From positions 1 to 31,075 of IMG/VR virus record IMGVR_UViG_3300024236_000016: a stretch of DNA of 31,075 nt. One strand, written 5' to 3'. A model generated the notes under the pieces. The model did no database searches. It was not told the origin of the DNA and was given only the letters and a program-made list of their open reading frames with translations. The translations under genes and the position numbers were made by a program. Positions 5,659 through 29,628 of this stretch are shown piece by piece. Numbering within the stretch: the first letter of the stretch is position 1; each line of letters begins with the position of its first letter. Origin of the DNA: a virus.

Positions 5659-6234
5659 TTATTTATTTAATGTTTTAAAAATATTATTTAATGTATTATT
5701 TTTTCTTTTTTGTGAGTAAAGAAATAACTCTTTCTTTTCTACTGATGCTTCGGGTGTATGTGTAATACCTTCAACCTCATCAGATGCTAATTCTACAGAA
5801 ACTTCCTCAACTTCTTTAACCTCTACTTTAGCAAGTTTTAATTCGTTGATTTCTTTTCTTAATTCTTCAATTGCTGAAAAGAATTGCTCTTCTGTAATAG
5901 ACTTAACTACTTTTTTAGGAGAAGCAACTTCTTCTGACATTTCTTCTTCAACAACCTCTTCAGATACCTCTTCTTCTTTTGGCTCTTCTTCTGTTGATGC
6001 TTCTTTAATGTCTGCAATAACACCTTCTTCTTCGATAACGATTACTTTTCCTTCTGCTTCATATTCTCCAATAGGAACTGCAATTCTTTCTTCGTCTGCA
6101 ATAACAAAGATTTCTGCACCTACCTCAAATGATTCAGCTTCAAAAATAGCACCATTATCCAATTTCATTTGTTCTAACTTTACCTCTATTCCAAGTAAAG
6201 TGCGAACTTTGTTTAATGTTTCTTTTGTGTTCAT
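5659..6234 (-). CDS. Probable capsid scaffold protein
   Basis: The 191-residue protein is very acidic. A small N-terminal beta domain (about 1-80: LGIEVKLEQMKLDNGAIFEAE, GAEIFVIADEERIAVPIGEYE) is followed by a Glu-rich linker (about 80-110) and a predicted coiled coil (about 117-140, EEQFFSAIEELRKEINELK), ending in a basic tail (YSQKRKNNTLNNIFKTLNK). An acidic coiled-coil protein with a basic end directly upstream of the capsid gene is typical of a scaffold, and similar proteins occupy this position in Bacteroidota phages. A late promoter-like element ends at its start codon. The role is inferred from position and composition. Confidence 0.65.
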   Translation of the reverse strand: MNTKETLNKVRTLLGIEVKLEQMKLDNGAIFEAESFEVGAEIFVIADEERIAVPIGEYEAEGKVIVIEEEGVIADIKEASTEEEPKEEEVSEEVVEEEMSEEVASPKKVVKSITEEQFFSAIEELRKEINELKLAKVEVKEVEEVSVELASDEVEGITHTPEASVEKKELFLYSQKRKNNTLNNIFKTLNK

Positions 6235-6251
6235 AATTATATTACAATTTA
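6235..6251 (-). promoter_or_regulatory. Late promoter-like element B
   Basis: On the minus strand TAAATTGTAATATAATT is followed directly by the scaffold ATG. It is identical to element C before the protease gene. It probably drives the scaffold-capsid unit that ends at the terminator at 4649-4683. Confidence 0.5.
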
Positions 6252-6280
6252 GATTAATTATTTTGTATTTTCATAACAAA

Positions 6281-6780: not shown

Positions 6781-7375
6781 TATCTACGCTATTTAAAAAA
6801 TCTATTAATTCTTTTAATATTCTTTCATCATCTGATAACTCTTCTTCTATTTCTTCTTTTGGTCTTTCTAATTTATCCGCAAAGTAACCCTCAATACTAA
6901 ACCCTTTTACTTTACCCGTTTTTACATAGTCATTCCAAATTTCATCGTTATTCACTTTTACACTACCCATCCAAGTTCCAATAGGCACATCTAAACCATA
7001 TAATGCAGTCTTATCTTTATTCTTATCTTCTACTATCCAAGACTCAACTAAAGTTAAACCCTCTAATTGTTTATCGTGTTCTAAAGTAGATTGCGATTGA
7101 TTACCATTCTGTAAATACATTTGAGAGGCTTTTAAGACCGTTTCTTCTGAAAAGAATATATAATATTCATCTTCTCCATTACGTCTGTATATAGGCTTCT
7201 TTGGTATTAATAAAGCACCCATTAACAATCTCTTTTCTTTGTTGATTTCAGCAAGTTTTATTTCTTGGTTATTTAACGCTATAAAGTCAGATTCAATTGC
7301 GGGGTTTTCCACAACAGAAATAGCCTCAACACCTATCGCTTCATCGTCATCTAATATAAGTTCGATTATCTTCAT
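6773..7375 (-). CDS. Prohead serine protease, XkdF-like (Peptidase_S78_2)
   Basis: The 200-residue protein carries the signatures of the XkdF-type prohead protease: LIPKKPIYRRNGEDEYYIFF (about 56-75), STLEHD with His100, GTWMGSVKVNNDEIW and GKVKGFSIEGYF with Ser160. His and Ser are the expected catalytic pair of this herpesvirus-assemblin-like clan. The family cleaves scaffold and capsid N-termini during head maturation. The neighbours agree: scaffold and capsid follow within 1.2 kb. A late promoter-like element identical to the one before the scaffold ends at its start codon. The C-terminus is acidic (EEIEEELSDDE). Confidence 0.88.
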   Translation of the reverse strand: MKIIELILDDDEAIGVEAISVVENPAIESDFIALNNQEIKLAEINKEKRLLMGALLIPKKPIYRRNGEDEYYIFFSEETVLKASQMYLQNGNQSQSTLEHDKQLEGLTLVESWIVEDKNKDKTALYGLDVPIGTWMGSVKVNNDEIWNDYVKTGKVKGFSIEGYFADKLERPKEEIEEELSDDERILKELIDFLNSVDNE

Positions 7376-7392
7376 AATTATATTACAATTTA
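7376..7392 (-). promoter_or_regulatory. Late promoter-like element C
   Basis: On the minus strand TAAATTGTAATATAATT directly precedes the protease ATG. It is identical to element B and is the likely start of the head transcription unit downstream of the tape measure gene. Confidence 0.5.
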
Positions 7393-7411
7393 TTAGTTTT
7401 ATTTTACATTT

Positions 7412-9412
7412 TTATATTGATGCACCTTCAACAATATTCCTTTCCATACTTTGAGCAGAGGTTACATCGTTTGCTACCACGTATGCTTTTATAGGCTCTT
7501 TTTCTTGACCTCCTATTGCTTCAGCTAATTGATTTGTACCACTTGAGCCAACTACGTTAAATGAAGGAACTGCTGATGCTATTGTTGGAGAACTACCTAC
7601 ACCCACACTTGCACCACCACCTCCACTTGGTGTTTTAACAGACGCTATATTTTTAACCGTTGCAAAACCTTGCGATGCTACAATTGCTGTTGTTGCTAAA
7701 CGTTGTACTAAACCTGCACCAACTAAACCACTTTCAGCTTTTTCTGCCCACACATTCGATATACCTTGATATGTGTTTATCAATGCTTGTGCTAATGCAA
7801 ATGCTTTTCCCGCCTTACTATTTTCGCCTAACACTTGACTAATTGCTCCAAACGTACTTGATGCTAAAGCGATTTTTTGTTGTTTTAATTGCTTTTCTCT
7901 ATCAATATCTTTTTTAGAATTATCGTCTTTTAATTTATTTATAGCATTTTCTTTTGCTCTTTCTAAACCTTCTGTTGCTAAACCTTTTGCCTTTGCAAGT
8001 TCTATTAACTTATCATAATGTAAAGCAGTATTTTCTAATTCTAATATTCTACGTTCTTCTTCAGTAACTGCTTCTGCATCTCTTATCTGACTTTTTAAAT
8101 CATTTAATTCTTGAATCTTTGCTTTTTCTTTTTCTTTATCAGCTAAATCAAATTCTGCTTGTTGGTTATCAATTGCAGTCTTTTGTGCTTTACGTAATTC
8201 TAAAACCTTTTCAGATTCTTTACCGTAATATTCTTCAGCAAGTTTTATTTGCTCATCATAATCGGTTTTAATTAATCTTAACTTTTCTTTTCTTTCTTCT
8301 TCCTCTGTATCAATTAAACCTTTTCTTATACGTTCTAAATCACTTGCTTTTTTATCTTCTATTGCTTTTATTTGTGCAGCTTCTTCTCTTTTAGCACCTA
8401 CAATTTGACTTGTAACCTCTTTTTGTTTTGTTAACCTTTGAGTTTCTAACTCTATTACTCTTGCTTTTAATCTTGCCTCTTCATCTAAATCTTCTTTTTT
8501 TGAACGTGCTAATGAGTTTTCAGCTTGTTTTGCTTGTAAACGTAATTTAGCGGCTGCTATTTCTTTGTTAGTTATCTCTTCATCTATCTTACCTGCTTCT
8601 TTTAAAAACTCAATACGTTCTTTTGCAGTAAACTTTTCCCTATTCGCTGCTTTCTCTAATAAGTCTGCTCTATCTCTATTTGCTTTTGCTCTTTGTACAA
8701 GTAAATTTCTTTCAGCTTTATCTGCATTTGCTCGTTGGTCTGCTATTTGAGCAGCTATCTTTGCTTCTTCTTTTAATTCTTTTACAAAGTCTTTTGTTTT
8801 CTTTGTTACTTTATCTAATGTATTTTCAACACCTGTTAAACTATCAATAAGTGAATTACTTGACTTCTTTGCATCTTCTAAAGCACCTTTAAAATCACCA
8901 CTAAATACTTTCTTCATAGCACTACCAAGAAAACCAATAGTATTCATAAGAGCCTTAAACCTATTTGTTATATTCTCTTGAATTAAGTTTTTAAAGTCTA
9001 TTATTGCTTTTTTAGGATTCTCAAATACAGATATTATTGCTTCTCCTAAATCAGCCAATAAGTCAACTAAATTTCCAACTACACTACCAATTACTCCAAG
9101 TATTTTAGCAAACTTATTTTGCCCCTCTTCTGAACTTTTAAAAGCAGCCATTAAAGAAGTAACTGCAATTAACAATGCACCAATACCCGTTCCAATAATA
9201 GCAACCCTTAAACTCTTAAAGCCCGTTGTTAGTCCTTTAATAGATTGTCCAAAGTTCTTAACCTTTGTTACTGCACCACCCGTTAAACCGTCTAAAGTTT
9301 TAGTTGCTTCACCCGTTACTTTATTGGTTTCTTTTATTTCGTTGTTTAATTTCTGAACTTCTTTTACGCCTTTATCAGACTTTACTTCAATGTCAACTAC
9401 TATTTTTTCCAT
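7412..9412 (-). CDS. Tail tape measure protein
   Basis: The 666-residue protein has the layout of a tape measure. The N-terminal basic/helical region (DGLTGGAVTKVKNFGQSIKG) is followed by hydrophobic segments (about 70-95 and 105-130, e.g. AIIGTGIGALLIAVTSLMAAF). A long charged coiled coil (about 210-510) comes next, and the C-terminus (LAQALINTYQGISNVWAEKA, then LATTAIVASQGFATVKNI and a Gly/Ser linker) is the usual end of Bacteroidota tape measures. Its length sets tail length, about 100 nm at the common rule of 0.15 nm per residue. Unusually it lies downstream of the tail-tip genes and directly upstream of the prohead protease. Confidence 0.88.
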   Translation of the reverse strand: MEKIVVDIEVKSDKGVKEVQKLNNEIKETNKVTGEATKTLDGLTGGAVTKVKNFGQSIKGLTTGFKSLRVAIIGTGIGALLIAVTSLMAAFKSSEEGQNKFAKILGVIGSVVGNLVDLLADLGEAIISVFENPKKAIIDFKNLIQENITNRFKALMNTIGFLGSAMKKVFSGDFKGALEDAKKSSNSLIDSLTGVENTLDKVTKKTKDFVKELKEEAKIAAQIADQRANADKAERNLLVQRAKANRDRADLLEKAANREKFTAKERIEFLKEAGKIDEEITNKEIAAAKLRLQAKQAENSLARSKKEDLDEEARLKARVIELETQRLTKQKEVTSQIVGAKREEAAQIKAIEDKKASDLERIRKGLIDTEEEERKEKLRLIKTDYDEQIKLAEEYYGKESEKVLELRKAQKTAIDNQQAEFDLADKEKEKAKIQELNDLKSQIRDAEAVTEEERRILELENTALHYDKLIELAKAKGLATEGLERAKENAINKLKDDNSKKDIDREKQLKQQKIALASSTFGAISQVLGENSKAGKAFALAQALINTYQGISNVWAEKAESGLVGAGLVQRLATTAIVASQGFATVKNIASVKTPSGGGGASVGVGSSPTIASAVPSFNVVGSSGTNQLAEAIGGQEKEPIKAYVVANDVTSAQSMERNIVEGASI

Positions 9413-9544: not shown

Positions 9545-12157
9545 TTAAAGTGTTGTACTTACTATTAAATTACTACTTAACGCACTTGCATTACCTGAAG
9601 TATCAACTGCATCTACATTTATCGTATATTGAGTTCCCGCTTGTAAACCAAATATAGTGTATGTTGTTCCTATTTCTGTTGGTAATTGAATTACACCATC
9701 TAAATAAATTCTATAATAATTAACCGCAACATTATCAGTTGATGCAGTCCAACTTATAGTAACTTGTGTTCTACCTACTAAATCAGCACTTAAATTAGTT
9801 GGTGTTGTAGGAGGTGTTGTATCTTGGAAACCTGTTTGAGCAGTTACCTCTGTTGCACTTGCAAAACTACTTTCATTACCATTTGCATCAAAAGCAGTAA
9901 CTCTTATTAAATAAGTTGTGTTTTCTAATAAACCTAATATTGTATAATTAGTTTGTACACCTAAAGTATCTTCTAACACACCATCAACATAAACTTTATA
10001 ACCCGCTAAATTTGTTTCTGTATTACTATTCCAAGAAATTGAAACTGCATTATTTGTTTCACTATCAATCGTTAAACCTTGAACATCACTTGGAGGTGTT
10101 GTATTTGATACCTCTTCTAAAATTATTATGTCATTTAATAACTCTAATTCAGATTTACCACTTTGTAAATTAGTTGTGATTGAATTGATTTTATAACTAT
10201 GTCCGTTAACTATAAATCTATCTGCCAATGTATATTTCAATAATATTCTTAAAGGTAAATAAGCAGTTAGTTTTGTTAATCTGTTCTTTTTATTAAATAC
10301 ACTTTTAATATAATTCTTGTAATACTTCTTAAATAAAGTATCTTCAAAATCAGATGTATTAGTATATTCGTTTACCTCTTCATCAAAATGTATGTTTTCT
10401 TTGCTTATGTTTGAATCTATTGAACGACTATTTGAAGGTATATTATAAGCTACCAATTGTAAGTTTGTATTTAAACTATCTACAAATGAAATTGAAGTAC
10501 CACCTGTTTGGTATATTGGATAAAACAATAAAGGTTTGCCAATGTAACTTTCTTCGTTATCATCTACAAATCTACCATATTGTATTGTGGTTGAACTATC
10601 ATCGTTTATATCTTTTAACCTTTCGAACATCATATGAGAAAATGATGGAGTAACTTTATATATACCACCATCAATATCTCTTTCATCTCCATTATAATAA
10701 TTAGTACCCCATTGAGCAGCTTCTTTTTGTTCATAAGTAGCGGCTAATAAAGTATCTGTATCTTCATAACCAAAATCTATTTCTCTATAAGGTAAAGCTA
10801 CATTAACACTACTCTTTCTTGTATCTACATATTTAGTAATATCATAACTAACACCACTTGCATAAAAGCTATCTAATGTTTTTACAATTATCTTATTTGT
10901 ATCTCTATCAATGTAAGCAGTTAAATTAAACATTTTAAATAATGAAGTTAAGAAATCAATAACTTTCATTTCGGGTATTTGTTGAGTAATTACAAAATCA
11001 AAATTACTAAAGAATATAAATTGATTTGTTGAGTACCTTACCGTTGAACTACCACTACCAAAAGGTGTGTAATCTATACTGTAATAAATATCTGTAAATG
11101 TAATATCGTTCTTTGCTTCAATGTACAACTCATATTTAGAGCCACTAACAATTAAGTTCTCTAAACTAACTACCTTATTACCAACAATACCATTTTCTAA
11201 AGGTATTCTTAAACCGTCTCTATATATAAATAAATTATAAGGCTCTTGACTTGTAGTCTCTAAATTAATAGAGAATATATCGTAAAACTCAACATCACCA
11301 TTTATAATTAAAGTTGTTGAGTCTATTGTTTGTGTTTCTGTACCTACATCAGTTTTAACCTCAAACGTATTTACAAAACCACCATTTGCTTCACCCGTAT
11401 TTTCAACCTTACCTTTCTTTCTATGCATCCACATAAACAAATCATAATATGCTTTATTTGAACTATTGAAGAAATCTTCACTAAAAGTTAAATTATATTC
11501 GTACTCAATTGCTTCTATAATCTTACTTATTCTAATTGCATACTTTAATTCATCATATCTAACTCCGTGAACTTGCCCTTGATGTTGTCCACTATCATAA
11601 AATAAATTACCGTCATTTTCATTACCTCCAAAATGTCCACTTGCACTATTGTAATATAATTGTTGTGTATGTGTTATTAATGGTATTATAATGTCATTTG
11701 AACTTGGACTTAAAGCTAAATAATTTGATATAACATTTGGCTCATATTTCTTACTTAATAAGTTTAGTTTGTTTAATACATTTAACTTATCGTCTCCTAA
11801 TATCTCTTTTAAGGCAATTGTACTGCCAAAGAATGTTACTTTATAGCTATGTGCTTTATTGTCTCTTAAATCAACTCCTTCTAACTTTATTTTGCCATTT
11901 CTAAATGGACTATTGTTTAACTCTATTCTTGCATCTACTTTTATTCTTGCATCAAAAGTATTATCAATGTCAAAGTTATAATAGTGTTTAAATATTCTGT
12001 TATTCTTTTTTGTAGCGGGTATGCTAAACGTTTTTGAAAAGTCTGTAAATACCTTTGCAATATCCCTTACATTTTGAATTGATTGTGTTATAGAAACACT
12101 TTCGTCTTTGAATAGTTCAACCCTATGACCTTGTATGTACAATTGTAGTTCTTGCAT
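9545..12157 (-). CDS. Tail-tip/baseplate hub protein with two C-terminal FN3 domains
   Basis: The 870-residue protein begins MQELQLYIQGHRVELFKDES, with KVFTDFSKTFSIPATKKN shortly after. This N-terminus recurs, from memory, in tail-tip proteins of flavobacterial phages. The middle contains a region (about 390-430) ending in VIDFLTSLFKMFNLTAYID that resembles tail hub/Tal-type proteins. The C-terminus holds two fibronectin type III domains, about 685-778 and 779-870, each starting after a TTPP linker and containing ISWN/ISWT and TYLIRVTA/QYTINVDA strands. FN3 domains on tail tips are thought to bind cell-surface glycans. It lies between the other tail-tip gene and the tape measure. Confidence 0.7.
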   Translation of the reverse strand: MQELQLYIQGHRVELFKDESVSITQSIQNVRDIAKVFTDFSKTFSIPATKKNNRIFKHYYNFDIDNTFDARIKVDARIELNNSPFRNGKIKLEGVDLRDNKAHSYKVTFFGSTIALKEILGDDKLNVLNKLNLLSKKYEPNVISNYLALSPSSNDIIIPLITHTQQLYYNSASGHFGGNENDGNLFYDSGQHQGQVHGVRYDELKYAIRISKIIEAIEYEYNLTFSEDFFNSSNKAYYDLFMWMHRKKGKVENTGEANGGFVNTFEVKTDVGTETQTIDSTTLIINGDVEFYDIFSINLETTSQEPYNLFIYRDGLRIPLENGIVGNKVVSLENLIVSGSKYELYIEAKNDITFTDIYYSIDYTPFGSGSSTVRYSTNQFIFFSNFDFVITQQIPEMKVIDFLTSLFKMFNLTAYIDRDTNKIIVKTLDSFYASGVSYDITKYVDTRKSSVNVALPYREIDFGYEDTDTLLAATYEQKEAAQWGTNYYNGDERDIDGGIYKVTPSFSHMMFERLKDINDDSSTTIQYGRFVDDNEESYIGKPLLFYPIYQTGGTSISFVDSLNTNLQLVAYNIPSNSRSIDSNISKENIHFDEEVNEYTNTSDFEDTLFKKYYKNYIKSVFNKKNRLTKLTAYLPLRILLKYTLADRFIVNGHSYKINSITTNLQSGKSELELLNDIIILEEVSNTTPPSDVQGLTIDSETNNAVSISWNSNTETNLAGYKVYVDGVLEDTLGVQTNYTILGLLENTTYLIRVTAFDANGNESSFASATEVTAQTGFQDTTPPTTPTNLSADLVGRTQVTISWTASTDNVAVNYYRIYLDGVIQLPTEIGTTYTIFGLQAGTQYTINVDAVDTSGNASALSSNLIVSTTL

Positions 12158-15043: not shown

Positions 15044-15196
15044 TTAATGTTTTATGAAAAAACCAATACAATTTTCATAAGCCTTCGTCAATAACAAATA
15101 TTGTTGAGGTGTTTTAGGTTTAGCAATTCTTACTTGCTTATTTTTCCTGTGATGAATATAACACTCAATCACCGCTATCATTTCTTCGTTTGCCAT
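15044..15196 (-). CDS. Small hypothetical protein after terL (50 aa)
   Basis: The ATG overlaps the terL TAA as TAATG. The product, starting MANEEMIAVIECYIHHRKNK and containing TPQQYLLLTKAYENC, is helical and basic. I recall similar short proteins next to terL in flavobacterial phages, without function. The coupling and the regular codon use support a real gene. Confidence 0.65.
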   Translation of the reverse strand: MANEEMIAVIECYIHHRKNKQVRIAKPKTPQQYLLLTKAYENCIGFFIKH

Positions 15197-16413
15197 TACC
15201 TTATACTATAATTACCCTTGTTTGGGTTATCTAAATTGTAAATAACGTTGTATCTAATACCATCAATTGCGTGATTAAAATCATCTACATATAACTTACT
15301 ACCTTTATCTAAATACACATAGTTATTTAATTCCTTTGCTATGTTCGTACTGTTTGGCTCAACTACTATTTCAAAGTCTTGCATCGTTGTTATACCACTT
15401 TCAATAGTTCCTTTCTTTACTGCTTTCATATTAACACCTTTATATTTTAAATCAGATATTAATCTTGGTTCTGCACTATCTGCAACTATTAATTTCTTAC
15501 CAACTCTACTTAATATTATTTGTGCTAATTCTGTTGTACCTAAACCATTTCTATACAAATGTTCTTTAACGTATATTTTTCTTTTTGCTTTATCAATAGC
15601 AACTTCTGTTAATGTATCGGGGTCTATACTAAAACCAAAGTCCATTCCACAACTTGTTTGTAAACCATCGGGATTGAACTCCCCAAAACTCCAATTCGTA
15701 AATACAACACCTTCTGCTTTATCTAACCAACCACCAAGTATTTTATGTTTGTACTTATTAGGGTTTGTTAAACGTATGTTCTCAATGTTCTTTAAGAATG
15801 ATTCGGGTAAGTTTAAGCGATTATCTAAATACGTTGTATGTATGTAGCAAGTATCTCCTACTTGTCCGTTAAAACCTTCCTTAACACCTTTAGCTTCAAA
15901 GAAACGTTTATATATCCAATGTTCTTTTGTTGTAGGGTTTAATATAAGTATAATTCTATTCTGTTGTACATTACTTCTTACAGATAAATCAATAGTATCA
16001 AATTCATTCTCATCAACCATTTCTTCCGCTTCATCTAACACCCAAGTTGATATACCTTGTAATGATTTTAGATTAGCCGTTTGATTTCCTGCGCTTGTCT
16101 TAATACCTCTAAAGATAATCTTACTATCGGTAATCGTATTCGTTATCTCTTTTCTATTTACATCAAAATGGTCCGATAAGTTAAGTAGTTCTATTTTCTC
16201 CTTAAATTCGGGTATGATTGATAACTCTGCAGAAGTCATTGTATAACGAGTGTACAAACAGTTATAACCTACATCTAAAGTATTTGTAGCTTCTATAAGT
16301 GTTGTACTAAAACTCTTGCTACTTCCTCGTTATCGACCTCCCGTAACGATGTAGTAACGTGCGTCACTTTCTCGTAGTGGGAGGAATTTTTCATTTATTG
16401 TTATTTGTTCCAT
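15196..16413 (-). CDS. terL: Terminase large subunit, reading frame interrupted by an in-frame TAA in Walker A
   Basis: Read from the ATG at 16413 (MEQITINEKFLPLRESDARY), the frame gives YIVTGGR, then TAA at codon 28, then RGSSKSFSTTLIEA and the rest of a TerL. Without the six bases TAACGA the P-loop would be a perfect GGRGSSKS. Downstream are Walker B (STWVLDEAEEM), the motif LILNPTTKEHWIY, and nuclease features CGMDFGFSIDP, IVADSAEPRLI and FNHAIDGIRY. TerL is the ATPase motor and nuclease that packages DNA through the portal. The total of about 403 codons is normal. The frame after the stop has no plausible start upstream of the P-loop, so a functional enzyme needs recoding, unless the stop is a mutation or sequence error. 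The start overlaps the HNH stop (TAATG). Confidence 0.85.
16327..16335 (-). other. CGA-TAA-CGA: stop codon between identical codons, candidate translational bypass site
   Basis: On the minus strand the terL codons read GGA GGT CGA TAA CGA GGA AGT. A peptidyl-tRNA hop from the first CGA to the second would skip TAA and yield GGR-GSSKS. GGGAGGT lies just before the take-off codon. This resembles the matched take-off and landing codons of phage T4 gene 60. A six-base insertion mutation is the plain alternative. Confidence 0.4.
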
Positions 16414-16988
16414 TATAATAATTTACCTATTTTCTTTAATCTATAAGAACTTATACCCGTTTCTTTTTCGGCTTGATTTAAAGAATCATATCTAACTCCA
16501 TTATATTCTATTGCCGTTCCTTGTAGTTTTCTTGTTCGGTCTAAAAACTCTTTTGTGTGCTTCTTTCCAAAAAATGGATTTAACTTGCCTTTTCTACCAT
16601 ACATTCCATTCTTTGCACCACTAACTTTTTCACTTATCTTTTTTCTAACTTCAATTCTTTTAGATGGATTGTTATCTCCCATCATTTTTTTAGATTGAAA
16701 TTCTCTTACCTCCGCATACTTCTTACTATCTCTATAATTCATATTGCAAGATGTATTCATTATCATAAAAGCAGCAGATGAAGACCTATCTCTATAATGT
16801 AAAAATAATAAATAGTGTGCTAAATAATGCTCTCTTGCAGTTAGTAATACAAGATTATTTTCATCATCAGAACCACCTAACCACCTTGGTTTTATATGGT
16901 GTGATTCATAATAACAGTCATCTTTTTTACTTCTCCCCATACCTTTCCTTGAAACGCATAAAGAATCATATATTTTTAAATAATTCAA
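16413..16988 (-). CDS. HNH homing endonuclease with NUMOD-type DNA-binding repeats
   Basis: The 191-residue protein starts at a TTG (MNYLKIYDSL), just after the terS stop, and ends overlapping the terL start. The N-terminal HNH nuclease domain shows YESHHIKPRWLGGSDDENNL and LTAREHYLAHYLL, the usual phage HNH pattern. The middle holds NUMOD3-like repeats (SGAKNGMYGRKG, LNPFFGKKHTKE), and the end has a NUMOD1-like module (YNGVRYDSLNQAEKETGIS). Such free-standing homing enzymes cut cognate genes lacking the insertion and spread by repair. Its place between terS and terL, 77 bases from an interruption in the terL P-loop, suggests that terL is its target. Confidence 0.88.
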   Translation of the reverse strand: MNYLKIYDSLCVSRKGMGRSKKDDCYYESHHIKPRWLGGSDDENNLVLLTAREHYLAHYLLFLHYRDRSSSAAFMIMNTSCNMNYRDSKKYAEVREFQSKKMMGDNNPSKRIEVRKKISEKVSGAKNGMYGRKGKLNPFFGKKHTKEFLDRTRKLQGTAIEYNGVRYDSLNQAEKETGISSYRLKKIGKLL

Positions 16989-16990
16989 AT

Positions 16991-17275
16991 CTATTCAGAC
17001 TTTTTAAAATGTATAATAGGTATATTTAATACCTCTCCATTTGTTGTGATATCAACCTCATCTTTTGGTTTACCTATGTAATACTCTAAAAACAATTTAC
17101 CTGCTTGGACATCTTTGTCCTTTATAGCTTTTGTCTTTATCATATTAATTACATCTATAACGTCTTGCTTTGTTGCAGCTTCTTTTAAGGCACTTCTATA
17201 TTCGTTCCTACGTTTATCTATCTTGCCTTCTTTTGCTTTAGTAGAATGCCCTCCATTTTCTTTTCTCTTGTCCAT
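16991..17275 (-). CDS. terS: Terminase small subunit (94 aa)
   Basis: The short basic protein begins MDKRKENGGHSTKAKEGKID and has a helical middle (VIDVINMIKTKAIKDKDVQA, GKLFLEYYIGKPKDEVDI). The EYYIGKPKDEVDITTNGE end is typical of small terminase proteins in Bacteroidota phages, which bind the packaging site and deliver DNA to TerL. It is the first gene after two tandem terminators and a promoter-like site, so it opens the late region. Only the homing HNH gene separates it from terL. Confidence 0.72.
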   Translation of the reverse strand: MDKRKENGGHSTKAKEGKIDKRRNEYRSALKEAATKQDVIDVINMIKTKAIKDKDVQAGKLFLEYYIGKPKDEVDITTNGEVLNIPIIHFKKSE

Positions 17276-19034: not shown

Positions 19035-19556
19035 TTATAATCTAAATTTAACTTGTTGTCCATTAATATTATCTTTCTTTCTTAAATTATCTTCTGCCCA
19101 CAAAGGTTGTAAGTTACTATAATGGCATAGTTTTATCATTTCTTCTTTAGTGTTAGCAGATGATAATGGTATAATATGGTCTATATGCCATTCTCCTTGA
19201 TTATCCCAATTCATACCTTTTGTAAACTGCCTTTCAATATGTGCTTTAGCAACTTCCCAATCTACACCTAACATTTCTTGAGTTTTAGATGTTTTAGAAT
19301 AGCTTTTGTTTTTAAAAGCCATAGATGTTCTTGTTCTTAAATTATCTTTTAATTTATGTAAAGGGTCTGTTTTTCTTTTTTGTCTTCGATATTCTTTATA
19401 ATATTCTTTATAACGTTCTGCATTGTCTTTTTGATATTGCTTTTTATATTCCTTATTACAAGATTTACAAAACGGTTGATAACCATCTTTCTTTTTCTTA
19501 TGCTTACTAAATTCACTATAAGGCTTTTCTATTTTACATTTACTACACTTCTTCAT
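19035..19556 (-). CDS. HNH endonuclease with N-terminal zinc finger (paralogue 1)
   Basis: The 173-residue protein has an N-terminal Cys4 finger (C4, C7, C30, C33: KKCSKCKIE ... FCKSC), a basic linker, and a C-terminal HNH nuclease core with EWHIDHIIPLSSANT and CHYSNLQPLWAEDN. It is clearly paralogous to the protein at 24678-25256: both share LGVDWEVAKAHIE/LGVDWEICKAHIE and the HIDH core. Free-standing HNH genes of this type are mobile. It follows the DnaA-like gene by 2 bases and lies before the AT-rich gap. A homing role rather than packaging is inferred. Confidence 0.85.
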   Translation of the reverse strand: MKKCSKCKIEKPYSEFSKHKKKKDGYQPFCKSCNKEYKKQYQKDNAERYKEYYKEYRRQKRKTDPLHKLKDNLRTRTSMAFKNKSYSKTSKTQEMLGVDWEVAKAHIERQFTKGMNWDNQGEWHIDHIIPLSSANTKEEMIKLCHYSNLQPLWAEDNLRKKDNINGQQVKFRL

Positions 19557-21316: not shown

Positions 21317-21329
21317 ATCTTTGTTTTAG

Positions 21330-21353
21330 TTGGGAGGCTTTTACACCTCCCTT
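21330..21353 (-). repeat. 24-base repeated hairpin, copy 1
   Basis: The segment is identical to 29274-29297. On the minus strand GGGAGG-T-GTAAAA-G-CCTCCC forms a 6-7 bp stem. It lies about 8 bases after one stop codon and about 14 bases before the next start. No T-run follows, so it is not a normal terminator. Confidence 0.75.
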
Positions 21354-21360
21354 ATTATTG

Positions 21361-24650: not shown

Positions 24651-24677
24651 CTTCTTTATATTTTAAAATTGTTTTTT

Positions 24678-25256
24678 TTATTCCTCAATCTTGTTAGATT
24701 TCTTTATATTATCTTCTGCCCATAATGGTTGTAAGTTAGAGTAGTGACATAATTTTTTTAATTCCTCCTCTGTATTAGCAGAGGCTAATGGTATAACGTG
24801 GTCTATGTGCCATTCTCCGTAATTATTCCAATTCATTCCTTCTGTAAATTGGTTTTCAATGTGCGCTTTACATATTTCCCAATCAACTCCTAACATTTTT
24901 TGTGTTTTAGAGTTTTTAGAATAGCCTTTATTTTTGAAGGCATAATAATTTCGAGTTCTTAAATTATGCTTCATCTTAAATAATGGGTCTGTTTCTTTTT
25001 TGTGCTTTTGATATTTTTTTTTATAATCTCTATAACGAGATTTATTATTTATTCTCCATTCTTCTGCTTTTGTTTTTACATACTCTTTATTTTCTTGATA
25101 ATATCTTTTACCTCTAATTGAAATTTTTTCTTTATCAGTTTTTTCTTGCTCTTTTCTACATACTTTACAGCAAAACTGTAATCCATCTTTGGTATTTTTA
25201 TTTTTATGAAATTCAGATAATTTTTTTTCTATTTTACATTTTGTGCATTTTTTCAT
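24678..25256 (-). CDS. HNH endonuclease with N-terminal zinc finger (paralogue 2)
   Basis: The 192-residue protein is a paralogue of the one at 19035-19556. It has a Cys4 finger (KKCTKCKIE ... FCCKVC), a longer basic linker, the conserved LGVDWEICKAHIENQFTEG, and an HNH core EWHIDHVIPLASANT followed by CHYSNLQPLWAEDN. It sits 2 bases after a GIY-YIG gene, between the SSB-like gene and the ATPase gene, interrupting the recombination module. A mobile, free-standing homing function is inferred. Confidence 0.85.
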   Translation of the reverse strand: MKKCTKCKIEKKLSEFHKNKNTKDGLQFCCKVCRKEQEKTDKEKISIRGKRYYQENKEYVKTKAEEWRINNKSRYRDYKKKYQKHKKETDPLFKMKHNLRTRNYYAFKNKGYSKNSKTQKMLGVDWEICKAHIENQFTEGMNWNNYGEWHIDHVIPLASANTEEELKKLCHYSNLQPLWAEDNIKKSNKIEE

Positions 25257-27851: not shown

Positions 27852-27888
27852 AATTTCTAATTTTTAATGTTTGTTTTTAATTACACTA

Positions 27889-27922
27889 CAAATATATAGT
27901 TTATTTTGTTATTAAATGTTAA
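27889..27922 (-). promoter_or_regulatory. Putative early promoter P1 (lipoprotein unit)
   Basis: On the minus strand TTAACA, 20 bases, then TATATTTG, followed by TAGTGTAA and an A-rich leader of the lipoprotein gene. The same boxes with the same 20-base spacing occur at 29560-29593. The -7 box matches TAnnTTTG. Confidence 0.6.
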
Positions 27923-27983
27923 AATAAATGTTAAAGTTGTTATAACAGTTGATATAATTTATTAAAACAAATCATATCTTGGT

Positions 27984-29256: not shown

Positions 29257-29273
29257 AATTTATTTGTTTTTAA

Positions 29274-29297
29274 TTGGGAGGCTTTTACACCTCCCTT
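29274..29297 (-). repeat. 24-base repeated hairpin, copy 2
   Basis: The segment is identical to 21330-21353 (GGGAGG/CCTCCC stem). It again lies just after a stop codon (about 8 bases) and just before a start (18 bases), with no T-run on the minus strand. Confidence 0.75.
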
Positions 29298-29305
29298 GTT
29301 TGTTA

Positions 29306-29521: not shown

Positions 29522-29559
29522 AATTTCTTGTTTTTAATTATTGTTTTTGTTTTACACTA

Positions 29560-29593
29560 CAAATATATAACTTTTTTTGGAACTAAATGTTAA
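29560..29593 (-). promoter_or_regulatory. Putative early promoter P2
   Basis: On the minus strand TTAACATTTA, 16 bases, then TATATTTG and TAGTGTAA, the same layout as P1, with two further TTTAACA-type repeats upstream. It is about 40 bases before an ATG and lies downstream of a terminator. Confidence 0.6.
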
Positions 29594-29628
29594 AAAGTGT
29601 TAAAATAAATGTTAAATTTTGTTAAAAT

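Follow-up and report, generated by a model that had tools for sequence, protein, structure and literature searches.

Introduction

In bacteriophage T4 gene 60, the closest described system, a stop codon stands directly after the take-off codon and a 50-nt gap separates it from a matched GGA landing codon (PMC5009743, PMC11194080). In the proposed model, a 5′ stem loop that has begun to re-form beyond the mRNA exit draws the mRNA along while its pairing is completed (PMC5009743). The HNH homing endonuclease gene mobA lies near gene 60, and the insert has been suggested to protect from the nuclease (PMC5009743; PMC3014915; PMC2988022). In synthetic Escherichia coli stop-hop sites, matched codons flank a stop and 9 nt encode one amino acid; of natural in-frame stop hopping, a 2016 review states that "no occurences are known" (PMC5009743). 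The same review cites a bypass proposed for the terminase of Streptomyces phage Hau3, which its account links to the rare UUA codon and to a proposed regulatory role, and describes mitochondria of Magnusiomyces capitatus, where many short inserts are tolerated via translational bypass (PMC5009743).

Here we describe a stop codon within the Walker A motif of a phage large terminase gene (terL), found in the window, that is, the whole 31,075-nt stretch of viral DNA analysed (IMG/VR record IMGVR_UViG_3300024236_000016, positions 1 to 31,075). Judged from sequence comparison, the site is likely to be a minimal programmed translational bypass (stop hop) that is paired with a homing-endonuclease cassette much as gene 60 of T4 is with mobA.

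Locus and annotation

Read on the minus strand from 16413 to 15193, terL encodes MEQITINEKFLPLRESDARYYIVTGGR, then TAA, then RGSSKSFST..., and is open from there to its natural stop at 15196 to 15194. The codons across the P-loop are GGA GGT CGA TAA CGA GGA AGT AGC AAG AGT, of which GGT CGA TAA CGA GGA (Walker A) occupy 16338 to 16324 on the minus strand, confirming the CGA-TAA-CGA arrangement described in a first-pass annotation of this DNA. The features of the locus are as follows.

15194 to 16326, minus strand: remainder of terL, with the rest of Walker A (GSSKS) and the Terminase_3 ATPase and Terminase_3C nuclease domains (Pfam matches)
16327 to 16332, minus strand: 6-nt insert TAACGA, including the putative landing codon CGA at 16329 to 16327 (comparison with insert-free relatives)
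16330 to 16332, minus strand: in-frame stop TAA, immediately 3′ of the putative take-off codon (frame translation)
16333 to 16413, minus strand: terL 5′ segment of 27 codons, the last being the putative take-off codon CGA at 16335 to 16333 (frame translation; intact relatives)
16337 to 16384, minus strand: predicted RNA hairpin with its base 1 nt before the take-off codon (folding)
16413 to 16988, minus strand: gene for a 191-aa HNH/NUMOD3 homing endonuclease, situated between terS and terL (Pfam HNH and NUMOD3; phrog_655)
16991 to 17275, minus strand: probable small terminase subunit gene (terS), 94 aa (position; phrog_38011, of unknown function)

Insert-free relatives with 92 to 94% identity read ...YYIVTGGRGSSKSFST... 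at the terL P-loop, and the window therefore has exactly six extra bases, TAACGA, within Walker A. The motif GGRGS[SAG]KS is uninterrupted in 77 insert-free relatives, in agreement with the earlier observation that removing six bases gives a perfect GGRGSSKS; Sf6 gp2 (structures 4IDH and 4IFE) has the same motif, as GGRGSGKS, at the aligned P-loop position. The gene was also rightly described as otherwise intact: its 3′ part matches Terminase_3 and Terminase_3C (PF04466, E 1.6e-31; PF17288, E 1.2e-12; both above the cut-off), and dN/dS between insert-bearing sequences downstream of the stop is 0.03 to 0.07 (0.033 for L117/L005 and 0.060 for L213/L232). Each record examined, including the 35.7-kb record of contig L232, has one Terminase_3 match. 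TerL is under strong purifying selection.

The homing gene noted directly upstream matches phrog_655 (homing endonuclease, E 8e-39) in addition to HNH and NUMOD3, and some other carriers have such a gene at the same junction. The reading frame of the window gene (16988 to 16413) shares one base with the terL start codon, in the junction TAATG. In the insert-free relatives examined, terS adjoins terL directly. No phage-encoded tRNAs were found in the window or in 11 loci.

The window also contains other repeats. Near-identical copies (94%) of TTTTAnTTGGGAGGCTTTTACACCTCCCTTnTT, a terminator-like hairpin, lie at 21324 to 21356 and 29268 to 29300. A 300-nt direct repeat with 76% identity (19044 to 19343 and 24666 to 24965) falls inside the open reading frames at 19035 to 19556 and 24678 to 25256 and is likely a gene duplication. 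AT-rich repeats of 56 to 64 nt and 77 to 78% identity (27861 to 27924 with 29532 to 29595, and 6220 to 6275 with 7361 to 7416) occupy gaps between open reading frames, partly overlapping gene starts, and are possibly shared promoters.

Distribution of the insert

The P-loop stop insert was found in at least 18 IMG/VR contigs with at least 15 distinct sequences. All carriers are metagenomic contigs, representing the window phage and at least 14 related uncultured phages. Contig L002 contains the window 21-mer and is 99.985% identical over 13.4 kb, and thus represents the same phage as the window. L004/L117 and L005, at 94% amino-acid identity, show ATCGTTACGGGGGGTCGATAACGTGGG, where DNA of a different sequence holds the same insert, and wider scans found more distant insert-bearing TerLs (L127/L203, L128, L137, L153, L170, L201, and L202). 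The site reads CGC TAA CGA in L208, CGC TGAC CGT in L211, and CGC TGAA CGA in L213/L214, the last two located via endonuclease homologues, while a variable-gap scan yielded CGC TGAC CGA in L232 and CGC TGACC CGA in L236. Inserts are thus 6 nt (CGA/CGC-TAA-CGN), 7 nt (CGC-TGAC/TGAA-CGN), or 8 nt (CGC-TGACC-CGA) long. The stop always comes right after the take-off codon; of the 15 distinct sequences, 11 have TAA and the other 4 have TGA.

A scan of this P-loop position for an AGR or CGN codon followed by a TRR codon and by a third codon of any kind (NNN) returned nine contigs, all with CGA-TAA-CGN. The endonuclease-led search set no condition on terL and likewise found only CGN flanks; several other searches demanded CGN codons or the G-run by design and may miss other variants. 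Several matches of the variable-gap scan were chance frames and were discarded. A prophage search of GTDB species genomes gave two pattern matches, neither within terL. The nearest cultured phage relatives (Nonlabens P12024S/L and Riemerella phages) infect Bacteroidota and have an intact terL without the insert.

Flanking codons

CGN codons flank the insert on both sides in 18/18 contigs; the same arginine position is AGR in 69 of the 77 insert-free relatives. The landing codon often differs from the take-off codon in its third base, commonly as CGA to CGT and also as CGC to CGA or CGT. tRNA-Arg(ICG) decodes CGU, CGC, and CGA, and take-off would be favoured by its weak I·A pair at CGA. The sole CGG landing codon (L201, within 11480 to 11512) is outside the standard wobble of this tRNA and may probe the strictness of codon matching.

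A move from CGN to CGN would restore GGRGS[SG]KS exactly for 6-, 7-, and 8-nt inserts. Relative to its first half, the second half of terL falls into a different frame with each of the three lengths, so that stop readthrough could serve the 6-nt cases only; landing on CGN alone would restore both frame and motif at every length, so a codon-matched hop would explain them all. The first-pass proposal of a hop between matched codons next to a homing endonuclease is partly supported and is now the most likely reading, extended to three insert lengths, to a hairpin predicted at every site folded, and to junction genes of both HNH and GIY-YIG type; its premise of identical codons does not hold, since third bases may differ.

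A tiny stem, CG-N4/5-CG, is possible at the take-off site in all sequences, with a third pair predicted in some only. The 27 residues before the stop resemble those of insert-free relatives, with no insert-specific nascent-peptide motif. In many TerLs a K-K-Y motif precedes the take-off arginine by about 18 residues and recalls the KKYK of gene 60; it occurs with or without the insert and is thus probably ancestral.

Predicted RNA structure

The hairpin predicted in the window pairs CCUCCC (16384 to 16379) with GGGAGG (16342 to 16337) in its lower stem and has inner stems at 16375-16372/16349-16346 and 16368-16363/16358-16353. Its folding energy is −22.3 kcal/mol (z −4.27), and none of 200 shuffled sequences folded as low. 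A strong hairpin was predicted in all 14 distinct insert-bearing sequences folded (z −2.6 to −6.5), with a mean minimum free energy of −22.2 kcal/mol (z −4.4) versus −6.5 kcal/mol (z 0.0) in 52 insert-free sequences (Mann-Whitney p 1.6e-8, before any correction for relatedness). It is a single long hairpin that abuts the take-off codon; L202 also has a competing fold.

In the insert-bearing genes, a C-run lies 39 to 41 nt (45 nt in L170) upstream of the first glycine codon, and a G-run lies at the Gly-Gly codons. CCCC or longer is present in 15/18 insert-bearing contigs versus 1/75 insert-free ones, and GGGGG in 16/18 versus 2/77, the window having GGGAGG opposite CCTCCC instead. GGGAGGT, noted earlier in connection with Shine-Dalgarno pairing, is more likely to form the 3′ arm of the hairpin than to act as a Shine-Dalgarno sequence; the 5′ arm, CCTCCC, lies 40 nt upstream.

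The hairpin goes with the insert in 3.9 of 4 phylogenetically independent pairs defined by supported branches, and with only four such contrasts the phylogenetically corrected significance cannot reach 0.05. RNAalifold recovers only the lower stem from a 13-sequence alignment because the helix register shifts by 3 to 4 nt between groups, and covariation counts on a fixed structure are modest for the same reason. One conserved architecture in differing registers would be expected under selection for a hairpin. Downstream RNA structure did not differ between insert-bearing and insert-free sequences, and Rfam gave no match for the site. A CGTTA/TAACG inverted repeat spanning the insert was present in the window and some relatives only and was dropped as a candidate. 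Strong folds are also predicted for this stretch in the insert-free terL genes of L015 and L023 (−18.9 and −15.8 kcal/mol); they may have arisen by chance or be left over from a precise loss of the insert.

Homing endonucleases and mobility

Endonuclease genes lie at the terS/terL junction in 8 to 9 of 15 insert-bearing sequences versus 0/77 insert-free relatives, as far as these include the stretch, a comparison that the first-pass annotation had put forward as a check. HNH genes occupy the junction in the window, L127, L128, L153, L211, L213, and L232 (7/15), a GIY-YIG gene in L137 (PF01541, E 9e-8; 1/15), and a weak T5orf172-like gene, below the Pfam cut-off, in L208 (1/15). HNH homologues with at least 58% identity are all found at this junction beside an insert-bearing terL. 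The insert occurs without a junction endonuclease gene in L117, L005, L170, L201, L202, and L236 (6/15), a pattern that would fit loss of the endonuclease after fixation of the site, or spread of the insert as a resistance allele.

Judged by eye, GIY-YIG or T5orf172-like endonuclease genes lie ∼470 to 890 bases upstream in L236 and ∼1,300 to 1,700 bases upstream in L005. The genes of this type near insert-bearing terL (L137, L208, L236, and L005) are unrelated to the HNH gene of the window; their Pfam comparison covered L137 and L208.

The insert-bearing TerLs are polyphyletic, with six changes on the tree, at least four of them forced by supported branches, and a tree uniting the insert in one clade is rejected (p-AU 2.4e-4). 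Between L004 and its close, insert-free relative L003, identity is 0.70 to 0.85 in the tract from −66 to +30 and 0.94 to 1.00 beyond it (terS, 0.93); L004 and L005 show no differences between −66 and +6 and share 0.88 to 0.98 identity downstream of the insert. From these identities, the tract looks like a recently imported piece of ∼100 bp, to which selection on the RNA could contribute. The insert and hairpin are probably a small mobile cassette associated with free-standing homing endonucleases of HNH or GIY-YIG type.

Proposed mechanism and alternatives

We infer the hop, its tRNA, its motor, and the protection from cleavage as follows. terL would be decoded up to the CGA of GGR, where peptidyl-tRNA-Arg, probably with an ICG anticodon, would face the stop in the A site. 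The anticodon would release, the ribosome would advance by 6 nt (in relatives by 7 or 8 nt), and re-pairing of the tRNA with the next CGN would give a protein in which the Walker A, GGRGSSKS, stays intact. The predicted hairpin right behind the ribosome is probably the main stimulator, and its top may refold outside the mRNA exit; closing of its lower C/G stem would pull the mRNA backwards through the ribosome. Since this lower stem would complete only with forward ribosome movement, a motor like that proposed for T4 gene 60 fits. The insert presumably disrupts the endonuclease target in the P-loop DNA.

Readthrough of the stop in 6-nt inserts, or +1/+2 frameshifting in 7- and 8-nt inserts, would instead lengthen TerL by two residues, to GGR-x-R-GS[SG]KS. 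An arginine before GSxKS is obtainable in this way for each insert, UGAC is a leaky stop context, and CGC-UGA-C after a G-run recalls the prfB frameshift site. However, three different recoding events would be needed for one site, the GG-to-GK loop of Walker A would be lengthened although it is uniform across the 77 relatives and matches Sf6 gp2, and the presence of CGN at both arginine codons, where relatives have mostly AGR, would be left unexplained; we consider this reading unlikely. Similarly improbable is that the same hop is driven by pairing of the G-run with the 16S anti-Shine-Dalgarno at very short spacing rather than by the hairpin. GGGGG or GGGAGG does lie 1 nt before the take-off codon, and its spacing after the hop would be 7 to 9 nt, typical of Shine-Dalgarno sequences. 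Against this, the matching C-run at a fixed distance (CCTCCC/GGGAGG in the window) favours intramolecular pairing, and Bacteroidia ribosomes are described in PMC9976891 as failing to recognise Shine-Dalgarno sequences, with the 16S tail sequestered, which makes such a role less likely for phages whose nearest cultured relatives infect Bacteroidota.

Removal of the 6 to 8 nt from the RNA by processing or splicing would yield GGRGSxKS as well, and the hairpin adjoins the site, but no known bacterial pathway takes out so few bases, Rfam has no match, and cuts of varying length would always have to leave CGN; this we regard as very improbable. An in-frame stop in an essential motif might also signal a dead terL, a sequence error, or an assembly artefact. 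That reading is refuted by recurrence in divergent contigs: 15 distinct sequences in 18 contigs share the site, which excludes sequencing error, dN/dS after the stop is ∼0.05, and there is one terL per record. The disabling mutation, sequence error, and simple micro-duplication listed as plain alternatives in the first-pass annotation therefore fail as complete explanations. The codon-matched hop beside a homing endonuclease remains the likely reading.

Comparison with known systems

We favour, with some reservation and on a literature search that covered open-licence papers, the view that in-frame stop hopping occurs naturally at these sites, as the first such system: one family of 6- to 8-nt bypasses with a hairpin motor, requiring neither a special nascent peptide nor a Shine-Dalgarno sequence, recurring in the terminase P-loops of phages that probably infect Bacteroidota, and spreading as a mobile cassette together with homing endonucleases of several unrelated families. 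Among phage genes with efficient natural bypassing, T4 gene 60 is the one that has been studied in depth. The 15 compact sequences here have built-in variation in gap (6, 7, or 8 nt), stop (UAA or UGA), take-off codon (CGA or CGC), and landing codon (CGA, CGU, or CGG), which allows direct tests of what gap length, the stop, codon matching, and the hairpin each contribute. The pattern points to selection by homing endonucleases for recoding signals within essential genes, and stop-containing genes of this kind may be listed as broken in phage annotations.

The prfB (RF2) site combines a +1 shift on overlapping codons with a G-rich stretch just before the stop. The terL sites resemble it in the G-rich stretch and, in three relatives, in UGAC, but differ in a 6- to 8-nt gap and a matched landing codon. 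The synthetic E. coli stop-hop sites have the same arrangement of matched codons around a stop but are artificial constructs. By the review's description, Hau3 likewise involves a phage terminase, a short gap, and an upstream Shine-Dalgarno-like sequence, and differs in its link to UUA. The Magnusiomyces capitatus elements differ in being mitochondrial and largely context-independent, with larger inserts and with an A site occupied by an unused codon instead of a stop. The closest likeness is to T4 gene 60, which shares the stop after take-off, the matched landing codon, the upstream stem loop, an essential phage gene, and a nearby HNH gene. Gene 60 has a 50-nt gap, stem loops at take-off and on the 3′ side, a nascent peptide (KKYK) that bypassing requires, and GGA/GGA codons, whereas the terL elements have gaps of 6 to 8 nt, CGN/CGN codons, and no insert-specific peptide, and lie in another gene and in many lineages rather than one.
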